Source: a virus. From it: DNA of 24,334 bases. The notes under the pieces were generated by a model. That model saw nothing but the letters and a program-made list of their open reading frames with translations. It did not search any database and was not told where the DNA came from. The translations under genes were made by a program, and so were the position numbers. Every line of letters starts with the position of its first letter. Position 1 is the stretch's first letter. Shown one piece after another: positions 5,130 to 17,068 of the stretch. The DNA lies in IMG/VR virus record IMGVR_UViG_3300025652_000532, positions 1-24,334 of that record; one strand, written 5' to 3'.

Positions 5130-8100
5130 TTATTTCGCATCAACACTTAACACATCCTGCTTATAGTTCTTAAGCATTCTATTGTAAGCTAGGTCTATAA
5201 CAACATCACTTACCCCCATACCTTTAAGTATAGCCTTAGTATCACTACCTGCAACCTTGTTAAGTCTAGCCCCTGCCATAAGATCAGCTATTATGTTTAG
5301 ATCGTTATCAAGGTCAGGATTATTCTTCATCTCGTTAATTAATAAAGTTTTATCTCTTATAATCTTATCAGAAGACCTACTTCTCATATCGTTGTAGGTA
5401 TTCCTAGCGTTTATAGACATAGTTTTATTAACGTTTGACCTAGAGATTCTAAGTCCAAATAAAGCTAATGTTTCGTAAGTAGGAACTCTTTCAGAGTCTT
5501 GTTCAAATGATTCCATTATTCTTTGTACGTTTCTACCTAGTCCTGGCATAGCAACCTTCTTACCTACGTACTCAATCATTTTAAGAGTCGCTGTTGCACC
5601 ATCGTCTGTTCTTTCGTATATCTTATTACCTTTATTTTCGTAAGCCTCTAAGAATACAGCTAAAGTCATCTCCTCGCCTAAGAAAGGTTCGTACATTTTC
5701 TTTATTATACTATAAGCAGATTCCTCACCCACCTCAGTATCTATATCTGTAAATGTAAGTCTTAGAATATCTCTTATGTGACCTACACCAGATATGCTAG
5801 AGAAGTTTATGTAGTCGAAGTACTTATCGTTCTCCATCTGATTTTCATTAGTCTTACTCTCTAAGACACCACTATCAACGTATGCTAAACTACCATCTCT
5901 ATCCCACTCAGCTACCATAGTTCTAATTCTTCTCTCTTCAGATTCTTCTTCGTCTCCACCAGCAAACCCTAGAGATTGGGATATAAGCTGCATAGTATAT
6001 AGCTGAAGACCTTCTAATAAAGTCATTGTAGCTATAGTACCAGCTATTCTTTTGCTTCCAATCTTTCTAATATCAGGGTTACTACTGCCTATCTCTTCAA
6101 ACCCTAACTTAACAGCATTCTTAGCGTTACGGAATGATTCAGCCTGGAACGCAACGAATGAACCTACTAAAGGAGATCTACCTATAACTCTTATTATTCT
6201 AGGTATCTCGTTATAGTTAGGGTATAGGTTGATTATATTCCTAGCAGCCATATCATCAGCTTCCTTCTCTGAAATACCAGCCTCAATATATCTAGCCTTC
6301 TCAGATAAGAAACCATAGAACTTCCATACATCATCCTCTGCTTGGTATGCTCTAGTTGCTTTATCATCAAGATATTTAAGTGGTTTACCTACAGACCTTA
6401 CAGTCTTAGCCATAAGTTTACCAATCTTACCTCTTTTCTCGTCTAGGTACTTAGACATATCGTAGTCACTCTCCCCTAAATCTTTAGATATATTTCTAAT
6501 CTCCTCTAGGGAAGCAGAAGAACTAAGCACTCCTTTCTCTATAAGGTTCTTTCTTATAACATCTAACTCAGCGTTACTAGAACCCATAGTTGCTTTAATA
6601 GATGCTTTAGCATCCTCATACATAGTACCAACATCCATATTTATATGACCATTCATAGTAGCGAATGCTGTGTTACCTACAATGTTCTTAACGTGAGTAC
6701 CAGGATTCCATACAGTCTTTGTCTTCTTATTTAAAAGTACAAGTTGCATGTAAGAGTCGTACACCCAGTTAAATAAACCTTCTCCTTTTTCAGGAGACAT
6801 TTGATTCATCACAGCGAACATCTCGTTGTCTACAAACTTACCTTCTAGGCTACCCCATTTAGCTCCTACAAGCTTATTAAATGTATCTGGAGTCTGAGTG
6901 TCGGAGATAAACTTACCATTACCTATATCAAGAATATCTTTATACATTCTCTCAGCAGTTATAGTCTGAGCGACCTTCTTAACTGTATTGTTGTAGTTAA
7001 ATATAGGGTCATCAATCTCACCCCAGAAATCTTTAATCTCTTGAGGTATTTCTTTTCTTTGCTTGAAGATAGAAGTTAACCTACTAAGTCCATCTAAAGA
7101 ACCACCGTTCTTAATGTTGTACGCAAAGTTTTTATCGCTGTTTAGTTTTCTGTAATTAACATCAACTATCTCAGTCAATCTCTTCTCTGTAGCTTTAGGG
7201 TTATCTTTCTTAGCTTCTCTGTATAAGAAGTCTTTAGTCTTCTGTATAATAAGGTTGTCTGTTTGTTCCCAACCCTTAACTTCGAAATTTTTGTACGCTT
7301 GAGTTACATATAATCCTAGGTTACTATCAACTGTAAACATAGTCTGACCTGCTATAAGATCCTCAGCAATAAGAGTCTTACTTAAGGCATCAATTCCCAT
7401 ACGCATCTCAATAAGAACATTCTTAATTTCAGAATCCTCTAAGGCTTTTATTTTATTGTGATCGTGTAATAAATCGTTAAGCTCTTTTTCAGTATAATTA
7501 TACTTTTCGTTAAGTTTCTTAAGTCTTTTACCAACCTCGTTAGCCTCTATGATTGCAGAGTTTAGAGCACCTCTACTCCTAACCATTATCTCCTTCACTT
7601 CTTTATCAGAGTGAGTACCAAAAGGTTTAGCTAATAAAGTTGTTAACTTAATATCGTAACGTTGCTTATCTTTAGAGTCAAATGCTTTTTGATCTACAAA
7701 CCCAGTAAGGTAAGTACCTGACATGTAGTTAAGATCCTGCATAGCCTTAGATATATCCCAACCTATAGATACTAAACCATCAGTGTATACGTTAGACTCT
7801 CCTTCCTCTTGAGGGGCTTGGAACCTAAGTGGCCCAACCTTATCAGTGGCAGCCTTAAGCTCTGAGGTTAGGTTTATTACTGCGTTAGGGTATTCTTTTT
7901 TCGGAGAAGGAAACTTATCGTTAATAGATTTGAATAGACTAGCACTTGCTAGATTGTAAAAATAACCCATAGGCATATCTTTTACCTTTTCAATGCTATC
8001 ATAGCTGTCTTTGTACTGCTCAAATTTATTGTAAGTTTTTTCAAATAACTCTCCAGTATTAGGGTCTGTAAACTCAGTTGTTATGTATGTGTTTCCATCT

Positions 8101-11100
8101 TCTCTGCTAGAAACGTTTAATTTGGGTTTGTAGGCTCTTAAGGGGTTAAAGTTAAATGTGTGAACATCAACATCTCCAATAGTCTCTATGTAGTTTCTAG
8201 ACTCTAAGAACTCATCAGATTTAAGTGCTAGGTCATTAGAAATATCTATTATATTTTCAACACCATACTTCATCCCCTTAACTAACCTCTTAAGTTCGTT
8301 ATTGATATTTTTAGGGACTATCTTGTTATAGAACTCTGATGTTCTACCTTTATTCCCTCCAGTATGACCTTGTACAATATCAGACTGCTCTCCATTAACA
8401 AATGCTATCTGATCGTACCCCTCTTTAGAGGCTTGATTGATAACTTTCCTGATAGCTAGCCCAACCCATAGGTCTGTTTGATTCCAAGGGAGGTATGGTT
8501 TGAGGTATTTCAATTGATTTGATAATCTTTCAACCTCTTCTTTAAATTTGTTTAGTAAAGGTGCTCCTTGACCATCAGGATACATTTTACTTAGCTCTTT
8601 TATAATATATTCACGATCTTCAGGTTTAACGTTCTCAAGCAAAGAGTCTCTGTTTTCTAATCTAAGAGCTTTTAACTTAGATTCTAATTCCTCAACCTCA
8701 TACTTAGTCTTAAAGTTACCCTTATTAGTTCCTTGAACCCAATCAGACTGTATCTCTTGAACGAAGAGGATCTTCTCCCCATTAGGACCAACTCTATCGT
8801 CAGCTCTAACAGATGCTATAAGATTTTCTCCAAGTTCATCGTAGTGAGGGGCAGTGAATATATCCTCAGAAGACTTATCCCTAATAAGGAACTCTCTGTA
8901 GTTTTCTCCTCCAGGAAGGGTTACCTTAGAATACCTAGATACTGGGAGTAAACCATCTAGTGCCTCCTCTATAATATTCTTTCTCTCGTTATCACTTAAC
9001 TCCTCTACCTCTGTCGTTACTTCTACGTCAGAGTTTAATAAAAGACCCTCAGGGGTTGTAATACCATAAGTGTCACCATCGTACCCTATGTTATAATCAT
9101 CGTAGTTAATTACAGGATCCTTAGATAAAATCTTAGTCTCTATATCAGCCATGTTAGTAGCAATCAATTGAGCTACAACCTCCTTAGGGATACTCTTAAC
9201 CTTAGACTCTTTTTGGTAAGCCTTAAGTATATCCTCTAGACCCATAGTAGCAATATCCTTTGATGTACCTTTAACACCTTTAGATAGTCTACTTATCCAC
9301 TCTGTTGGGTTAGCCTTATCAATATCTATCATATTCAAAGACACCAAAGCGTTAGGTGTATACTCCATCTCATATGTAGGAGCCTGGAACCTTATATCTG
9401 GACTTATTCCTTGATATACATTTATAGACTCTTCGCCTTTTAGGTAAGCATCGTGAATCCTGTTGTATCCATCTATAACTTTATTGTCACTTCCAATTAT
9501 AGGAGGCATAATAGATTCTTCGTCATATTCTCTAATACCAGTTGATGTCTCTATATACTCTTTAAGAACTTCGTCATTCTCTAGAATGTCCTTAATCATT
9601 AGAGTTCTCTCCTGATAGTTTTCAGAAGCTATTTGATCTAAAGTAAAATCAGAAAAACCACCTTGATCAGTTCCCATTTCATCAGCCTCCATAGCTACCT
9701 CATCTCCAGGTATTTGGAATCTTAATCCAGTTCTCTTGTCTTCAAACCTCTCATCAAAAGGAGTAGTCTTCTCAGCATTCTTAGCGTAAACTAACCCACC
9801 AATCTGAACAACTTGTTCTGCACCCACAACTGGCATACCATCTAACCTATCGTAGAAGTATGAGTGTCTAAATGGATTCATACCAACTTGAGACCATGAA
9901 GGGTCATTCATTACATCAACTACTATTTGTTTAGCATTTTCACCTCTAGCTTTAGCATCAGCCCCCTCAATAGGACTCCAATTACCTAGCATTCTAGCAA
10001 TGGTAGACTTACTTAGCTTCCCTCTAGCTATACCTAAAGCAACTTTAGGACTAGATATGAACTCAACATTGTCTATCCTAGCAACGTTTGTGTAAGACAT
10101 AGCTTTACCTCTACCATCTTCGTGTACGGTGATAGCCCATATATTCTTATTTGTGTAAGCAGGAATGTCTAATCGTAAACCAACCTTAGTACCCTCTTCT
10201 ATAGGAACGTCTAATCTACCTTCGATCTTAGATCCTACAGCAGTTTCAATATCCTCTAGGCTAGCAGGGTCTATAAATTGAGTTATAGGCTTAATAGGGC
10301 TATTCTCCTGAACTATATCTAAATACTCCTGTTGGTTTATCTCTCCATCGAAATAAGCCTGTGCAGCCTCTCTAACCTCTTCTCTTCTATTAGTGATAGC
10401 TAAATCACCTCTACCTATCTTAGACTCTTGCCACTGCACCTCTTCTACTTGAGGAACCTGCATTCTAATCTTCTCAGATATTTTTAATGGAGTAGTTGAT
10501 ATTCCTGCTGTAGGTGGGAATATTTGATTCCTTGTTAGGGTTGTCTTTCCAGATCCACTAACCCTTTTAGCATCACCAATAACCTCATTAGTTTTAGGAT
10601 CCTCAGCAACCTCGTACCAAAACTCTCTATTATCTAATCTATGTATTTTAGCCTTACTACCACCTTCAGACGCTATAGCAGTACCATAACTCTCGTATCT
10701 ATTATCCTTAACAGCCTTTACAGGTCCGTCAATTTCTAGTACAGCATATACTTTATTAGTTACTTCTTCACCTCTTAATTCTGGCTCTGTAAGTACGTTT
10801 ACTAAAGCCTTTTTCATACTACCAATACTAGCCTCTCCTTGCTTATTAAATCCTACTAAACTATCATCGCCCATTGTGGTCTTGATGAAGTTAACAAAGT
10901 TAACCTTACTTGTTCCAGACTCAATAGAAGCCTTAACGTAGGTTAGGAATTTATCAGTGAATAGTTTTCTATCATTGAATGAACTCTTCTTGTTGTCTAA
11001 CTTATCCCATACCTTCTCAAGAATATCTTCTTCAAATTTAGAGCTTGCTCTATAAGAATCAATACCCAACTTCAATCCAAACTCTTTAGGCCCAACCTCG

Positions 11101-14100
11101 TTAGATGCTTTAATTAAAGCTTTATAAACCTCAGATTTATTTAAGCCTATCTTAGATATAAAGTTTTTAGAGGTGAATAAGTTAACCATACCTCTGGACA
11201 TGGCTGTATTAGAAAGTAATTTACTTTCCCTAGCTGTAGTAAGAGCCATGTATATTTTGCCACCATTAGCCTCTAACATAGAGTTAAGTTGCTTAACCAT
11301 GCCATTGGCAGCGTTATCAGTAGAAGCCCAGAAGTAACCATCCTCGTTGAATTTCATGGTGTAATAAATTCCACCCTTCCCCTCTACTAGAATTGTTCCG
11401 TCAGAATCAATAACAGACCCTGAAAATGTTGCGTCAGGAGAATGTATCATCATTGTCTTACCTTTGAAGTCTTGTATGGTCTTACCACTAGTGATACGCC
11501 CATCGGCTTCCATCTCAGCAAATACCTTTGAGTTTACATCGTAAGTGTATTGTATCTGAGTTCTTCTATCAACAGCATCTAGTTGGAATCTAGACTCAGC
11601 GTCAGTTTCTCCAACCTCAAACTCTACTCCTCCAACAGTAACCTTTCTACCATCAACCAAAGCCTCAGCTAAGTTTGTTTTTATATCAGATAGAGACATA
11701 GTATTAAGGTCTATAGCCTCAACGTTCTCAGGGAATGATGTTACACCAAGTTTAGTTAAGATAGCCTTTATAACCTCTCTAAGTCTATTAAGTCTAGAGT
11801 CTTTATTCTTGAAGTGACCATAAGCAGCGTCACCCATCATCTCAGCAAAAGCCTCCTCTATCTGACCTTCTCTAGAAAGATCAGCATAGTTAGTCTCAGC
11901 CCACTCAAGGTAAGAGCCTTTTATCTTACGACCACCCTTTGTAGTTCTTCTTTTAACTTTACCCTCAGCCACCTCAGCCTCTATTCTTTTATATAGAGTT
12001 GGGTCAGTCTTCTTAATGAAGTCAACCATTGGGTGAATAATCTCGTGGAATAAAGTGTTACCCTGAACAGTCTCAAGGTTTACGTATATAGTTTTGTCAG
12101 AACCCCTAAAGAAGGATGATCTTTTCCCTGACTCAACAATCTTCTCGTCAATACCTAAAGATTCCATTTGTCCCTTCATAGCCTCACTGTTACGTATAAC
12201 TGTAACGTTAAGACCACCAATAGAGTTAAGGAATTTTAAAGCGAAACCTAAAGCTCTCTTACGATCTTCAGTTACACCCTCAAATAGTTCACTATCATAA
12301 TTTGCATTCTTCTCGTCTAACTTATGCAAGTTCTCAGAGTTAAAGTTTTTACCATGACTAGTATTACTCCAGTCTAAGCCTGTATGTAAAGACATTTTTC
12401 TACCACCAACACTCATTATTGTTAGGGCATCCATCTTTCTAGCATCAGTCCCCTTAAGTGGTTTACCACTCTTTAAAGGAACTACAGATCCATTACTAAA
12501 CATAAGACCATCTTTAGCAGAAAATATAGACTCTTGACCAAATTGTCTACCTAAGTCTAAAGCTTTAGCATTATCTATACCTGTGACTACAAGACTCTCT
12601 TCAGCAACTCCATTGTACACACCTTGAACAGTGTAGTAAGTAGCATCTGCTGCATCTAACATAGACTTAAGCTTCTCCATTCTAGAGTTTCTCTCCTCTT
12701 GAGTTAAGCCCTCCTTTTCTGAAGTTAGTACGTGGTAGTCGTTACCATCTATAACTTCTTTAGGTATATCATCAAGACCTTCTTTTTTAGTCTGTAAGAA
12801 TAGTTTGTTATTAATAGGAAATAAGCCACTATCTGTATTGCTTTTAGGTCTCTCAGCTCTACGTTTTTTCTTTCTGTTTTCTATTTGCTTTTCACTATAA
12901 TTAGCCTCAAAGCCTTCTTTAGTTTCAACTAATTTAAGTGTTGCATCTCCTTCCTCTACAAGACCAAATACATCTGCAATTCTTTCATTAGGGGTAGTAT
13001 TATTTTTTCCATATTTCTCAAAATCAAACTTGCCAACAGACTCTCCATTTTCATCGAATGTTTCAACTTGTACTTTACGTCTACCATCTTTTGCAGTGCT
13101 TATTGTAACTAATACTTTATTACCATCGTCGTCTGTAGTCTCGTAAGTTTCTGAATAAACAGTATCTTGGTCGTTTGCTAACTCGTCTGAAGTAAACTCT
13201 TGTTCTACCACTTCTTCTTTAGATGCCTTGTCAGCAGCCTCAAAGTCCTTCATGGCATTCTTAGCCTCGTTAAGATTTTTAAAGCTACCTTGGACAACCT
13301 CTGAGCTTTGTACGCTCTCACCATTAACTGTAATGGATTGTTGACTCTCTGAGACTACTACCTTAGGTTTCTTATTCTTATTTTTTACTTGTTCTTTGAC
13401 GCTATCATACTGCTCTTGAGTTTCTATCTTAGAAACGTTTACAGTTTCAGTAACGTTAGATTTAGATAAGTCTTGAGTTTGAGTAGCGTTTACTATCTCA
13501 ACTCCTTTATCCTTTAATATTGATGCAGCCCTAGCTCTAGTGGATTTTGTTGATGAAGATATATTATATTTAGACTCTTTACCCTCAACCTCCATCTCAG
13601 CCATAGCTTCAGATAAAGCGTTTAAGTCCTCTGTAGATACCTCCTCAGAAGCCTCCACTTTGTTAAGAACTTGCTGAACAGCTTTCTCTTTATCGAACAT
13701 TCTTGCTCTAGATTCTACAGCATCAGGTGCGTAGTAACCATAGATTATTTCTTCTAGTTGCTGTCTAGCTACATCATTCATAGAAGCCTCCATGTTGATA
13801 GTACCTCTTCTTATCTGAGCAGCAACCTCTGGATCTTTAGCAAACTTTAAAGCCTCAGCTCTACTCATTTCCTTAACAGAACCATCCTCCATAGTAAAGA
13901 CAGTAGATATGTTCTTATCTAAAATCTCAAACTTCTTTAGTGATTGGTATAAGTATGGTGCAGTATGCATTCCTCCACCCATTAAACCACCTATAATAGT
14001 AGCATCAGATATTCTTACAGCAATTTCCTCTATACCTTTATATTCTGCAGATCCAGTAAATAAGTCAGTCATAGCATTACTAAGCTCTGTAGCACCCTCT

Positions 14101-15608
14101 GATAAACCTTCTATAGCAGTTTGCTTTGAAAATCCTTTAACAAATTTATCTGCTATCTCTGCTGGCTTCATCTTACCTAAACCAGCTATTTTTCTACCAG
14201 CGTTTATACCATCTAATGTGAATTTCTCAAAAAACATCTCAGCCCCTCCAGTAAGAGCAACATTAGCTAATAACATTCCTTCGGATATATCTATCTCACC
14301 CTTAAGCCTTTGTTCTCTAAGTTCAATATCTTTAAGACCCCCTGCTGATATACCTGCAAAACCAAGTGTAGCACCCTCAGCCAATCCTAATGGGGCAGAA
14401 GCGTACATACCTAGTATCAATGGTGCTGACTCAGCTAAGGCATTACCAGCCTGGAACATAGCGTTACCATAATTACCCTCAAGTAAAGATTCACTCATTG
14501 AGCTTTGTTCGTATAATCTAGTTTTATCACGCTGACTGTTAGCGTACTTATGAACCTTATTTGCTAAGAATCCACCCTGTAACTTAAACATAGTTTGTTG
14601 GTAAGGACTTGCTTGTGCACCTACTCCCTCAAGTAATTCTAAAGGACCAGCAACAAGCATATCTAAACCACCAGCGTAGAACGACTGAGCTATATCACCC
14701 CATTGTCCTCCAGATTCCATCTGTCTATTTAAAAGGGAATTAAGATTTTTTAAAACCTTATTATCCTGAGTGTCAAGTACTTCCATAGACGCTTCACCAG
14801 ATTGTAGTTGGTCTATAAACTCTTGATCGTAAGCCTTTGCTTCAAAATCCTTAATACTAACTTCTTCTCCGTTAATCTTTAGGTTTTTGATAGGTATATA
14901 ACCTAAGTCTATACCTTCAGCTTGAAATTGAGCAAGTCTTTCTTGTGGAGGGTAGTTTGATTTTATCTGCTCTACCTTAGCTTGATTGTATTGTTTTTCA
15001 GCTTCAAAGATTTTGTCGCTGTTTTGTGAAAAGTAATTGTTTACAGAGTCTTCTTCTGTAACTAACATGTCCTCTATCTCTTCAGGACTTGTCATGTTTT
15101 TATATATTTTCTCAAGAAAGCCTAGATCTTCATCAGCATCTTCTTTCTTTCTATCAGATTCTTCTAATGCTTTTCTTTTGTTATCAAAGTCAAGCTTTTC
15201 ATCTAGGTCTAAACCGTTAGCGTCAAAGAATGGTCGTAACTCCTCTTGCTTTCTTAAGCTTTTTTGTTCATCTTCAGGAAGGTCTTTAAACCCAGAAAAT
15301 CTCTCCTCTAGACTAGACTGAACGTCTTGTTCCAAAGAAGGCTGAGAAGCCTCCAATTGTAATGCAGTATCCTCTGAATCCTTCTGAGGTAATGTACTTG
15401 GAGATATTGAAACGTCTTTTTTTTTTAACCCAAGTAACTCTTTATAATCATCTTCAGAACCATTATATCCAGAACCTTTAAACAAACCGTAAGAGTCTGC
15501 AAAAGCTTCAGCGTTATCAGATAATAAAGTATAAAATTCATCTTGTGTGCCATTATAGCCTGTATTAGTAAACAGACCATAAGCGTCTTTTAATGCTTCT
15601 TCGTTCAT
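5130..15608 (-). CDS. giant mosaic virion polyprotein (3492 aa) with metallopeptidase and large-polyvalent-protein modules
   Basis: Probably the largest internal virion (ejected) protein. Layout: two 30-residue repeats (9-59); a charged helical region; hydrophobic segments near 390-425 (APLILGMYASAPLGLAEG); a polar, possibly disordered 640-1000; a zinc peptidase site H1188-E-x-x-H1192 with E1251/E1252 as likely third ligand (EEAFAEMM). From about 1343 onward come phage large-polyvalent-protein modules: HSPD...GGIYY...FWAS (about 1390-1425); a VLEIDG...ESYGTAI module (about 1640-1690); RHSYFYD at 1914; ParB-like VIDGYNRIHDA around D2046; YREFLIRD...EIQSDW (2285-2290). An LPD38-like C-terminus has NPGTHVKN (2968), YPNYNEIP, SPLVGSFVAFQAESFRN and a membrane-like helix near 3190-3217. 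RFQ motifs (1340, 1963, 2073, 2595) and an RMQ (1715) mark the later boundaries. The ATG overlaps the previous stop (TAATG). No RNA polymerase signature was seen, unlike N4 vRNAP of similar length. Confidence 0.85.
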   Translation of the reverse strand: MNEEALKDAYGLFTNTGYNGTQDEFYTLLSDNAEAFADSYGLFKGSGYNGSEDDYKELLGLKKKDVSISPSTLPQKDSEDTALQLEASQPSLEQDVQSSLEERFSGFKDLPEDEQKSLRKQEELRPFFDANGLDLDEKLDFDNKRKALEESDRKKEDADEDLGFLEKIYKNMTSPEEIEDMLVTEEDSVNNYFSQNSDKIFEAEKQYNQAKVEQIKSNYPPQERLAQFQAEGIDLGYIPIKNLKINGEEVSIKDFEAKAYDQEFIDQLQSGEASMEVLDTQDNKVLKNLNSLLNRQMESGGQWGDIAQSFYAGGLDMLVAGPLELLEGVGAQASPYQQTMFKLQGGFLANKVHKYANSQRDKTRLYEQSSMSESLLEGNYGNAMFQAGNALAESAPLILGMYASAPLGLAEGATLGFAGISAGGLKDIELREQRLKGEIDISEGMLLANVALTGGAEMFFEKFTLDGINAGRKIAGLGKMKPAEIADKFVKGFSKQTAIEGLSEGATELSNAMTDLFTGSAEYKGIEEIAVRISDATIIGGLMGGGMHTAPYLYQSLKKFEILDKNISTVFTMEDGSVKEMSRAEALKFAKDPEVAAQIRRGTINMEASMNDVARQQLEEIIYGYYAPDAVESRARMFDKEKAVQQVLNKVEASEEVSTEDLNALSEAMAEMEVEGKESKYNISSSTKSTRARAASILKDKGVEIVNATQTQDLSKSNVTETVNVSKIETQEQYDSVKEQVKNKNKKPKVVVSESQQSITVNGESVQSSEVVQGSFKNLNEAKNAMKDFEAADKASKEEVVEQEFTSDELANDQDTVYSETYETTDDDGNKVLVTISTAKDGRRKVQVETFDENGESVGKFDFEKYGKNNTTPNERIADVFGLVEEGDATLKLVETKEGFEANYSEKQIENRKKKRRAERPKSNTDSGLFPINNKLFLQTKKEGLDDIPKEVIDGNDYHVLTSEKEGLTQEERNSRMEKLKSMLDAADATYYTVQGVYNGVAEESLVVTGIDNAKALDLGRQFGQESIFSAKDGLMFSNGSVVPLKSGKPLKGTDARKMDALTIMSVGGRKMSLHTGLDWSNTSHGKNFNSENLHKLDEKNANYDSELFEGVTEDRKRALGFALKFLNSIGGLNVTVIRNSEAMKGQMESLGIDEKIVESGKRSSFFRGSDKTIYVNLETVQGNTLFHEIIHPMVDFIKKTDPTLYKRIEAEVAEGKVKRRTTKGGRKIKGSYLEWAETNYADLSREGQIEEAFAEMMGDAAYGHFKNKDSRLNRLREVIKAILTKLGVTSFPENVEAIDLNTMSLSDIKTNLAEALVDGRKVTVGGVEFEVGETDAESRFQLDAVDRRTQIQYTYDVNSKVFAEMEADGRITSGKTIQDFKGKTMMIHSPDATFSGSVIDSDGTILVEGKGGIYYTMKFNEDGYFWASTDNAANGMVKQLNSMLEANGGKIYMALTTARESKLLSNTAMSRGMVNLFTSKNFISKIGLNKSEVYKALIKASNEVGPKEFGLKLGIDSYRASSKFEEDILEKVWDKLDNKKSSFNDRKLFTDKFLTYVKASIESGTSKVNFVNFIKTTMGDDSLVGFNKQGEASIGSMKKALVNVLTEPELRGEEVTNKVYAVLEIDGPVKAVKDNRYESYGTAIASEGGSKAKIHRLDNREFWYEVAEDPKTNEVIGDAKRVSGSGKTTLTRNQIFPPTAGISTTPLKISEKIRMQVPQVEEVQWQESKIGRGDLAITNRREEVREAAQAYFDGEINQQEYLDIVQENSPIKPITQFIDPASLEDIETAVGSKIEGRLDVPIEEGTKVGLRLDIPAYTNKNIWAITVHEDGRGKAMSYTNVARIDNVEFISSPKVALGIARGKLSKSTIARMLGNWSPIEGADAKARGENAKQIVVDVMNDPSWSQVGMNPFRHSYFYDRLDGMPVVGAEQVVQIGGLVYAKNAEKTTPFDERFEDKRTGLRFQIPGDEVAMEADEMGTDQGGFSDFTLDQIASENYQERTLMIKDILENDEVLKEYIETSTGIREYDEESIMPPIIGSDNKVIDGYNRIHDAYLKGEESINVYQGISPDIRFQAPTYEMEYTPNALVSLNMIDIDKANPTEWISRLSKGVKGTSKDIATMGLEDILKAYQKESKVKSIPKEVVAQLIATNMADIETKILSKDPVINYDDYNIGYDGDTYGITTPEGLLLNSDVEVTTEVEELSDNERKNIIEEALDGLLPVSRYSKVTLPGGENYREFLIRDKSSEDIFTAPHYDELGENLIASVRADDRVGPNGEKILFVQEIQSDWVQGTNKGNFKTKYEVEELESKLKALRLENRDSLLENVKPEDREYIIKELSKMYPDGQGAPLLNKFKEEVERLSNQLKYLKPYLPWNQTDLWVGLAIRKVINQASKEGYDQIAFVNGEQSDIVQGHTGGNKGRTSEFYNKIVPKNINNELKRLVKGMKYGVENIIDISNDLALKSDEFLESRNYIETIGDVDVHTFNFNPLRAYKPKLNVSSREDGNTYITTEFTDPNTGELFEKTYNKFEQYKDSYDSIEKVKDMPMGYFYNLASASLFKSINDKFPSPKKEYPNAVINLTSELKAATDKVGPLRFQAPQEEGESNVYTDGLVSIGWDISKAMQDLNYMSGTYLTGFVDQKAFDSKDKQRYDIKLTTLLAKPFGTHSDKEVKEIMVRSRGALNSAIIEANEVGKRLKKLNEKYNYTEKELNDLLHDHNKIKALEDSEIKNVLIEMRMGIDALSKTLIAEDLIAGQTMFTVDSNLGLYVTQAYKNFEVKGWEQTDNLIIQKTKDFLYREAKKDNPKATEKRLTEIVDVNYRKLNSDKNFAYNIKNGGSLDGLSRLTSIFKQRKEIPQEIKDFWGEIDDPIFNYNNTVKKVAQTITAERMYKDILDIGNGKFISDTQTPDTFNKLVGAKWGSLEGKFVDNEMFAVMNQMSPEKGEGLFNWVYDSYMQLVLLNKKTKTVWNPGTHVKNIVGNTAFATMNGHINMDVGTMYEDAKASIKATMGSSNAELDVIRKNLIEKGVLSSSASLEEIRNISKDLGESDYDMSKYLDEKRGKIGKLMAKTVRSVGKPLKYLDDKATRAYQAEDDVWKFYGFLSEKARYIEAGISEKEADDMAARNIINLYPNYNEIPRIIRVIGRSPLVGSFVAFQAESFRNAKNAVKLGFEEIGSSNPDIRKIGSKRIAGTIATMTLLEGLQLYTMQLISQSLGFAGGDEEESEERRIRTMVAEWDRDGSLAYVDSGVLESKTNENQMENDKYFDYINFSSISGVGHIRDILRLTFTDIDTEVGEESAYSIIKKMYEPFLGEEMTLAVFLEAYENKGNKIYERTDDGATATLKMIEYVGKKVAMPGLGRNVQRIMESFEQDSERVPTYETLALFGLRISRSNVNKTMSINARNTYNDMRSRSSDKIIRDKTLLINEMKNNPDLDNDLNIIADLMAGARLNKVAGSDTKAILKGMGVSDVVIDLAYNRMLKNYKQDVLSVDAK
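15432..15584 (-). repeat. two tandem 30-residue repeats at the N-terminus of the giant protein
   Basis: Residues 9-29 (AYGLFTNTGYNGTQDEFYTLL) with one extra leading A are matched by 39-59 (SYGLFKGSGYNGSEDDYKELL), a period of exactly 30 residues or 90 bases. The shared pattern is [AS]YGLFxxxGYNGxxDxxxxLL. The DNA copies differ at many third positions, so selection seems to act on the protein. The motif also occurs at the N-terminus of other giant proteins of Bacteroidota phages that I recall; its role is unknown, perhaps a docking or packaging tag. Confidence 0.75.
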
Positions 15609-17068
15609 TATGTCGGTTTGTTATAGTTTGATCCTACTCCTTGAGTTGATGTTGTTACTTCACCCTCAGCTATCTTAAATAAATCTAAAGATGTACCACC
15701 TGCAGTCTTAATCCTCTTCTTAACTGAGGAAGATAAACTAGCTAAAGGTATTAAATACATTTGTCCTGAAAACTCTACAGCAGCAACAGGCTGATTAGAT
15801 TCTGTAATACCTGTGTATATGATATTACCCTGAGCATCCATTCCTGTATTATCACTGTTCCAAACTTGTAGAGCAGTATTAAACTCTTCAAGTCTAGCTG
15901 CTCCCTGTCCTTCTATTAAAGCTTCAGGGCTCAAAGATACAGTTATATTTTCATTTGTAAGGTCATCATATTGACTAGGTGAGAATTTTATATTTACCTC
16001 ACCAAATGATTTAGTTTTTTCAGCATCTCCTAGTAAAATCTTAGAAGCGTCAGGACTTAATCCTGTATCTTTATCATCACCTTTACTAACAACAGACCCT
16101 CTAACACCAGGATAATCTTTTCTAGCACTAGATTCCATTTTACCTTTAAGGTATTGTATATAATTATTAGCTAATTCAGGTTCGTAAGTATCAGACCCAG
16201 GAACTAACTTGTCCGTAAACGTTGTGTCTCCAGGTTCTAAGCCAATACCTTCAGTCTCCATAGCAAAAGCTTCTGGTCCACTTAAATTACCTACATTATC
16301 AACAGTGAATAAACCTTCTTGACCTAAGTACATTTTTTTGTAAGCAGGGTCATCCCAATTACCATTCTTGTCTGGAGTTAATTTACCTACTATCTTTTTA
16401 CCAACTCTATCAAACTGAGCTTTAGATACGTATTTAACTTCATATCCATTCTTTTCCTCTTTATATTCTCTGTTTGAAGCTTCTGTAGAGTATAATGCAT
16501 TAGCAGGATTTTCAAACTTAGTCTCGTTTATAGCACCTTGACTTATAGGAAACTGTTCTAAAGCATCTGAAGGGTTTACACCTTGATCAACAGCATCTAA
16601 AAATGACTGATAATTATCCTCAAAAGTATAACCACCTTCTTCATTAGTCCCTAAAGAATCTCTATTATTTCCTCTAGCTAGTTCTCTGTTAGAAGATACT
16701 TCTTTCCAAACCTCATCAAAAACAACTTTTTCTGTTTTCAATCCACTTTCACTATCATATCTTTGATTTATAGCTTCAGAATCTTGATTAATTATACCCT
16801 CAGACAAACCTGCTAGGTTTTTCTGATAATTCAAAACATCATTCTGAAATATCCTACCCATCTCAGGACCCATACTTGAGGAGTCAAACGACAAAGGACT
16901 AGGTTGATTTTTCTTCCTAGCCTCTTTTCTTCTATCTGCAGCAGCTTGCTTTTGAAGCTCTAACTGCTCTCTTCTCATTTCTAACTGTTGTCTTACAGCT
17001 TCCTCTTGTAAAAGATTACGATTGTTCTTAAGAACTGTACCTGTAAAAAATAAACCTTCTTGAGCCAT
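15608..17068 (-). CDS. putative internal virion protein (486 aa)
   Basis: A mostly soluble, acidic protein. Residues 20-55 form a long charged helix with heptad-like spacing (EEAVRQQLEMRREQLELQKQAAADRR), a probable coiled coil. The rest is polar with several aromatic turns and strand-rich C-terminal sequence (VAAVEFSGQMYLIPLASL). No enzymatic motif is visible and I do not recognise a named family. It lies between the 300-residue and 3492-residue genes, three bases after the first, and its stop overlaps the giant gene's ATG by one base, so the three are probably made in fixed ratio. By position it corresponds to T7 gp15, the middle internal core/ejection protein; this is inference from order and size, not from sequence similarity. 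It could also be a scaffold or a tail-associated protein. Confidence 0.65.
   Translation of the reverse strand: MAQEGLFFTGTVLKNNRNLLQEEAVRQQLEMRREQLELQKQAAADRRKEARKKNQPSPLSFDSSSMGPEMGRIFQNDVLNYQKNLAGLSEGIINQDSEAINQRYDSESGLKTEKVVFDEVWKEVSSNRELARGNNRDSLGTNEEGGYTFEDNYQSFLDAVDQGVNPSDALEQFPISQGAINETKFENPANALYSTEASNREYKEEKNGYEVKYVSKAQFDRVGKKIVGKLTPDKNGNWDDPAYKKMYLGQEGLFTVDNVGNLSGPEAFAMETEGIGLEPGDTTFTDKLVPGSDTYEPELANNYIQYLKGKMESSARKDYPGVRGSVVSKGDDKDTGLSPDASKILLGDAEKTKSFGEVNIKFSPSQYDDLTNENITVSLSPEALIEGQGAARLEEFNTALQVWNSDNTGMDAQGNIIYTGITESNQPVAAVEFSGQMYLIPLASLSSSVKKRIKTAGGTSLDLFKIAEGEVTTSTQGVGSNYNKPT

Follow-up and report, generated by a model that had tools for sequence, protein, structure and literature searches.

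A short recurring peptide at the module joints of a giant phage protein: a lineage-specific seam and candidate processing site

The window analysed here is a 24.3-kb viral metagenome fragment (24,334 nucleotides), which carries on its minus strand an ORF (5130-15608) encoding a giant protein of 3492 aa. A preliminary description of this DNA had reported that the tripeptide RFQ recurs at or near the starts of distinct modules of this protein, and had read it as a protease recognition sequence or, alternatively, as a linker or recombination seam. The question addressed here is which of these readings, if any, accounts for the recurrence.

The giant protein and its repeated tripeptide

The neighbours of the giant protein are large proteins of 2042 and 300 aa, whose matches (near-threshold to the crassvirus muzzle C-terminus, weak to T7 gp14) give these neighbours a likeness to T7/crassvirus-type internal ejection (cargo) proteins. 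The C-terminal module of the giant protein matches phrog_22602 (PHROG, virion structural protein), and isolated Flavobacterium elemo phages encode homologues of its middle part that bear the annotation structural protein. On this basis, the source of the window is most likely a marine podovirus-like phage with a Bacteroidota host. A Pfam search of the giant protein returned only DUF3293 above cutoff and no LPD, ART-PolyVal or MPTase-PolyVal domain, the modules being too divergent for the models. The protein nevertheless holds at least two distinct modules in one polypeptide that are exchanged between relatives, as polyvalent proteins do, and is best explained as a polyvalent ejection-type polyprotein with an N-terminal part bearing an HExxH domain, a variable row of cargo modules and a conserved C-terminal module. 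Its parts are as follows.

11592-15608, minus strand: N-terminal part, residues 1-1339, including DUF3293 and the HExxH domain
12525-12707, minus strand: DUF3293 (PF11697), residues 968-1028 (Pfam E 2.1e-5, 25.5 bits against a cutoff of 25)
11715-12437, minus strand: zincin-like HExxH domain, residues 1058-1298, NTLFHEIIHPMV ... EEAFAEMMGD (invariant residues; putative fold)
12033-12047, minus strand: HEIIH, residues 1188-1192
11583-11591, minus strand: seam 1, AES-RFQ-LDA, residues 1340-1342
10467-11582, minus strand: cargo module 1 (HSPD/GGIYY module), residues 1343-1714, also present in Flavobacterium elemo phages
10458-10466, minus strand: seam 2, EKI-RMQ-VPQ, residues 1715-1717
9723-10457, minus strand: cargo module 2 (RHSYFYD module), residues 1718-1962
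9714-9722, minus strand: seam 3, TGL-RFQ-IPG, residues 1963-1965
9393-9713, minus strand: cargo module 3 (putatively ParB-like, by residues), residues 1966-2072
9384-9392, minus strand: seam 4, PDI-RFQ-APT, residues 2073-2075
7827-9383, minus strand: cargo module 4 (EIQSDW module), residues 2076-2594
7818-7826, minus strand: seam 5, GPL-RFQ-APQ, residues 2595-2597
5133-7817, minus strand: C-terminal module, residues 2598-3492 (phrog_22602 match)

The C-terminal module had been called LPD38-like in the preliminary description; no LPD38 match was found there by Pfam. Homologues of the RHSYFYD module occur in other contexts in Roseobacter phage CRP-9 and Podoviridae ctYwJ313, and the motif is absent from the Roseobacter phage homologues of this module.

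The four RFQ copies (residues 1340, 1963, 2073 and 2595) and the single RMQ (residue 1715) were confirmed at the reported positions and in the quoted contexts, as was the absence of RFQ from the other three virion-type proteins, which lack RMQ as well. The expectation of less than one RFQ was also correct: the computed value for 3492 aa is 0.185 against 4 observed (Poisson p 4.2e-5). When the search is taken over all tripeptides, some tripeptide is equally extreme in 7.3% of shuffled proteins, so the count within the giant protein alone is suggestive only. The possibility that so long a protein repeats a tripeptide by chance could draw on this figure; it is refuted by the recurrence of the motif at junctions across relatives, and its probability is negligible. 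Judged from the sequences of these related proteins, the case for non-chance recurrence is decisive.

Module exchange at the motif in related proteins

Relatives were collected by a scan of viral contigs; of the 25 loci that it yielded, 23 have clear giant-protein relatives, and two later scans added a few more. Among 19 homologous giant proteins built from about a dozen modules, the same motif was found at nearly every junction. This bears out the placement of the motif at module starts in the preliminary description. In these 19 proteins 55 of 60 module starts lay directly after the motif, where random positions give 2.1, a count that is partly circular, as the module references had been cut at the motif. 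Boundaries were also defined without the motif, from the ends of BLAST alignments (≥45% identity), in a non-circular breakpoint test: 43% of 546 internal homology ends lay within 15 aa of the motif, against a mean of 3.2% and a maximum of 12.6% when the motif positions were rotated. With no motif preset, the top 3-mers near the breakpoints included QAP, RMQ, IRM, LRF and RFQ.

Individual comparisons show the joints directly. The upstream end PLKISEKI continues through R[FM]Q into VPQVEEVQ, APTYEMEY, APTLFNEP, APSYDMEY or APEVAEEY; in the other direction, five different module ends run into the downstream start APTYEMEYTP, each via R[FM]Q. What distinguishes relative L009 from the window is a 229-aa module that lies between VGPLRFQ and GIGLRFQ. 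Compared with L003, L006 and L009, the window holds two additional modules at one site and, with them, exactly two additional seams. In these alignments modules are thus gained, lost and swapped exactly at the motif.

When 47 distinct seams, gathered by means of motif-based patterns, were compared, the consensus was [IL]-[RK]-[FM]-Q-[AVT]-P, and acidic residues stood near +7 and +9 (Q 47/47, R/K 47/47, F/M 41/47, I/L 42/47, P at +4 32/47). Variants have K in place of R and Y, L, E or A in place of F; REQ stands at both seams of L016 and L018, and the first seam is degraded in three proteins (EIRKKNP, EIREQNP and EIREKNP). The loose seam pattern is weakly enriched within single proteins, its strength lying in position and lineage coherence and not in raw counts. 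Codons differ synonymously among seams, and the RFQ seams encode the same peptide with several codon sets; the motif is kept as a peptide and not as a fixed DNA word. Many RMQ seams carry one identical 18-nt sequence, ATTAGAATGCAGGCTCCT, between different modules, which fits exchange at the seam.

One rival reading of the exchanges is that the motif is a recombination seam only, a short shared DNA or tolerant linker without function in the protein. Modules do swap exactly at the motif, and the presence of the common 18-nt sequence in most RMQ seams fits pure recombination as well. Neither point explains why the RFQ seams reach the same peptide by several codon sets, or why the I/L-R-F/M-Q residues stay while the flanks differ, and a DNA joint alone also fails to explain the joint change of all seams to KFSL or RFR in other lineages (below). 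We regard recombination without protein function as unlikely. The processing-site and recombination-seam readings proposed at the outset both fit and need not exclude each other, and the proposal is partly supported: its seam part is borne out by swaps exactly at the motif, and its processing part is the best explanation of the motif, at the level of a proposed function.

Lineage-specific variants of the seam

In other lineages the seam occurs in other forms, each used at all seams of a protein. L021 and L024 have [RK]FQ[LI] at five places each, L020 and L199 have [RK]FS[LI] at six or seven places, and gp68 of Bacteroides phage BF1-TP2 has four [IV]RFR (residues 1548, 1754, 2259 and 2480), with one of the four preceding and one following an HExxH domain of its own. 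Generality was tested with QIKSAxxNxGxF, a pattern that recognises where an ART-like module ends and is blind to what comes after it. This found 206 module ends in viral and bacterial contigs, with IRYS, IRFS, ILYQ, IRFQ, IRYR, ILFQ, IRFR and IRYH as the commonest continuations. Ten ART-like modules end directly in a stop codon, and all ten are without the motif, which is therefore not part of the fold.

In these otherwise unrelated polyvalent proteins, the variant after the ART-like module predicts the variants elsewhere in the same protein. Where the module is followed by R[FY]S, the ORFs contain a further 27 R[FY]S against 4.5 expected and show no excess of the other classes (R[FY]Q 2, 3.3 expected; R[FY]R 3, 4.7 expected), while R[FY]R proteins hold 5 further R[FY]R against 0.6 expected. 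Across ORFs the own-class count was 46, whereas 2000 permutations averaged 24.2 and reached 38 at most; the further sites are not all independent, since some come after further copies of the ART-like module, and others do not (e.g. GEVRYSIAE, EGIRFRWIG and GGEVRFQAT). The variants also divide by host phylum: the residue after R[FYL] is Q, R or H in 14 and S in 1 of the 15 classifiable Bacteroidota loci and S in 25/25 loci of other phyla (p 6e-10, uncorrected for shared ancestry). Genome-wide pattern searches (~1480 genomes) gave few matches, all but two of them apparently the ART-like module, and left the dialects uncontradicted. A general enrichment of RFQ in viral proteins containing EIQSDWHQ was considered and rejected (RFQ 5 against 9.2 expected), which makes RFQ itself a dialect of this phage group. 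By these comparisons the wider seam is [phi]-[RKL]-[FYM]-[QSRH], and the literal RFQ is just one of its dialects. The prediction of one site by another, together with the split by host phylum, marks the motif as a seam code that is specific to the lineage and probably has a reader acting in trans.

A candidate processing site and its reader

The reading we favour, with a probability of roughly 0.58, is that the motif is a proteolytic processing site, which is also the joint for module swaps and has, in each lineage, one recogniser that reads it in trans. The peptide persists between modules that are not homologous, always at the joint itself and in a lineage-wide form; a single recogniser acting at all joints explains this best, and an endoprotease is the most economical recogniser. 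It would cut within the motif, after Q or between R and F, and the modules would come free in the course of assembly or ejection or once delivered; for the giant protein the predicted fragments are 148.7, 41.5, 27.7, 12.5, 59.3 and 101.1 kDa. With the same short sequence at every joint, the motif would double as the point of module exchange. Zincins usually prefer a hydrophobic residue after the cut, a preference that cutting between R and F would satisfy; the invariant Q in the window's group would suit a cut after Q. No single scissile bond is common to all seams, because R[FY] can be followed by Q, S, R or H, and L016 and L018 use REQ.

The leading candidate protease is the HExxH domain in cis, and the second is a host protease. 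HEI[IV]HP and EEAFA are invariant in all relatives that cover the domain (10 diverse relatives), giving the conserved HExxH helix and downstream Glu of a zincin-like sequence, and seam 1 lies shortly behind the domain, as in a polyprotein. The preliminary description had placed an HExxH peptidase in this protein; the motif and its downstream Glu hold up as conserved, and the peptidase is a candidate role. A model of the domain (pLDDT 72) had no significant match to a solved peptidase in Foldseek, no PDB sequence match to the domain was found, and bacterial genomes scanned with a zincin profile yielded no relative. HExxH was present in 28/40 multi-seam ORFs against 46/78 of the others (truncated loci), and since the multi-seam ORFs are barely richer, a zincin in cis is not required everywhere. 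HExxH is known in non-peptidases as well. In an AlphaFold model of residues 1690-2640 (951 residues, a poor model) all four seams of that segment lie in lowest-confidence coil.

The recogniser might instead bind without cutting, the motif being a docking element for a phage or host packaging, ejection or unfolding factor by which each module is loaded or threaded. Variants specific to lineage and host phylum fit any trans-acting recogniser, not only a protease, and for crassvirus-type particles the cargo is believed to leave in a partly unfolded state (PMC10172136). However, the stop-ended modules are without the motif, yet would still need docking if delivered, and a site lying precisely between modules is what cutting calls for; docking is in our judgement decidedly unlikely. 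Proteolysis could also belong to capsid maturation, with a phage prohead protease acting as on the head proteins of T4 or SPN3US. Cleavage of packaged proteins has general precedent, and the giant protein would resemble the substrates of T4-like and giant-phage prohead proteases as a packaged protein processed at short motifs. In four 59-64 kb relatives, however, the giant protein is alone in having the motif in its form with A/V/T and P, which was not found in the probable capsid or scaffold proteins; processing by a prohead protease is very improbable.

For processing within the giant protein itself, the nearest parallel is a self-processing polyprotein. In picornaviruses the 3C sites (e.g. 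LFQ/GP) are a short recurring cleavage peptide, and the protease domain lies within the same chain. The giant protein likewise has one recurring short peptide at the junctions of functional units and a candidate protease domain in the same chain. It differs from picornavirus-type polyproteins in that cleavage is proposed from the motif, the peptidase is of another class and the cargo modules are mobile; LRFQ-AP and LFQ-GP show a resemblance only. T7/crassvirus cargo proteins are not known to carry the seam, and the text of the crassvirus atlas (PMC10172136) makes no mention of cleavage or protease. With polyvalent proteins, as they appear in the available text of Iyer et al. (2017; PMC5512222), the giant protein shares its size, multi-domain and virion-associated character, swappable modules and a zincin-like domain, and zincin processing of such proteins is predicted there. 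That text, as available, holds no RFQ, seam or cleavage motif, and the shared lineage-specific junction code is an addition made here. The NCBI PLxRFG domain (NF032893) was considered as an earlier description and rejected, its motif lying inside a C-terminal domain and being unrelated. Literature searches brought up no description of the seam motif, and the lineage-specific seam code is the new part of this work.

The odds appear about even for a wider proposal, in which polyvalent proteins of phages and prophages across several bacterial phyla would be true polyproteins. Their cleavage code, [IVL]-[RKL]-[FYM]-[QSRH], would be specific to the lineage, would co-evolve with the cis or host protease reading it, and would define the exchange points of a combinatorial cargo delivered together with the genome. 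Giant polyvalent proteins are widespread, and how chains of 3000-4000 aa pass through the virion and become separate activities is a puzzle. With the seam code, sequence alone is enough to place module boundaries, and modules that have no annotation can be isolated for study. The code points to delivery in modules whose joints are defined, and makes the question of processing testable in a single proteomics run.

Additional seams and cargo modules

In the giant proteins of loci L007 and L010-L013, two of the seams (short motifs between modules, putatively cleaved) lie 29 aa apart and enclose a 26-aa peptide (for example, VDKLENNSDLGVVNINIPDNTQTQEI), possibly a released peptide or else the leftover of a lost module. 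The phages at L020 and L199, whose own seam variant is [RK]FS[LI], carry an additional KFSL past the C-terminal module, close to the C-terminus. A zincin-like module of L017 sits as inserted cargo flanked by the seams LRFQ and IRLQ; one cargo module of L022 looks kinase-like and one in L016/L018 looks methyltransferase-like.

L007 giant protein, residues 1248-1277: close seam pair
L020 giant protein, residue 4129: additional KFSL site
L199 giant protein, residue 4153: additional KFSL site
L017 giant protein, residues 2608-2852: second zincin-like module, HEVQHH

Continuations of ART-like modules

Another common continuation after the ART-like module (end matching QIKSAxxNxGxF) was ITK[ASKE]xGG with a Gly-rich stretch behind it (L268, L281, L293, L304, L320, L324, L330, L342 and L344), perhaps an additional seam type of other phages. 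At L414 and L365, 3-5 ART-like module ends were arrayed per single contig, a stop codon directly following each; these contigs were binned to Saccharibacteria and Burkholderiales.

The 486-aa protein and a cultured phage

Window 15608-17068 (-): 486-aa protein, gene between the gp14-like and giant genes
L226 5234-16135: gp68 of Bacteroides phage BF1-TP2, 3633 aa, annotated as hypothetical

The 486-aa protein was compared with Pfam and PHROG and gave no match; its place in the gene order points to an ejection protein of the T7 gp15 type. BF1-TP2 gp68, a polyvalent protein, carries [IV]RFR at four seams as well as an HEVVGHH domain, and makes the seam reading testable in a cultured system.
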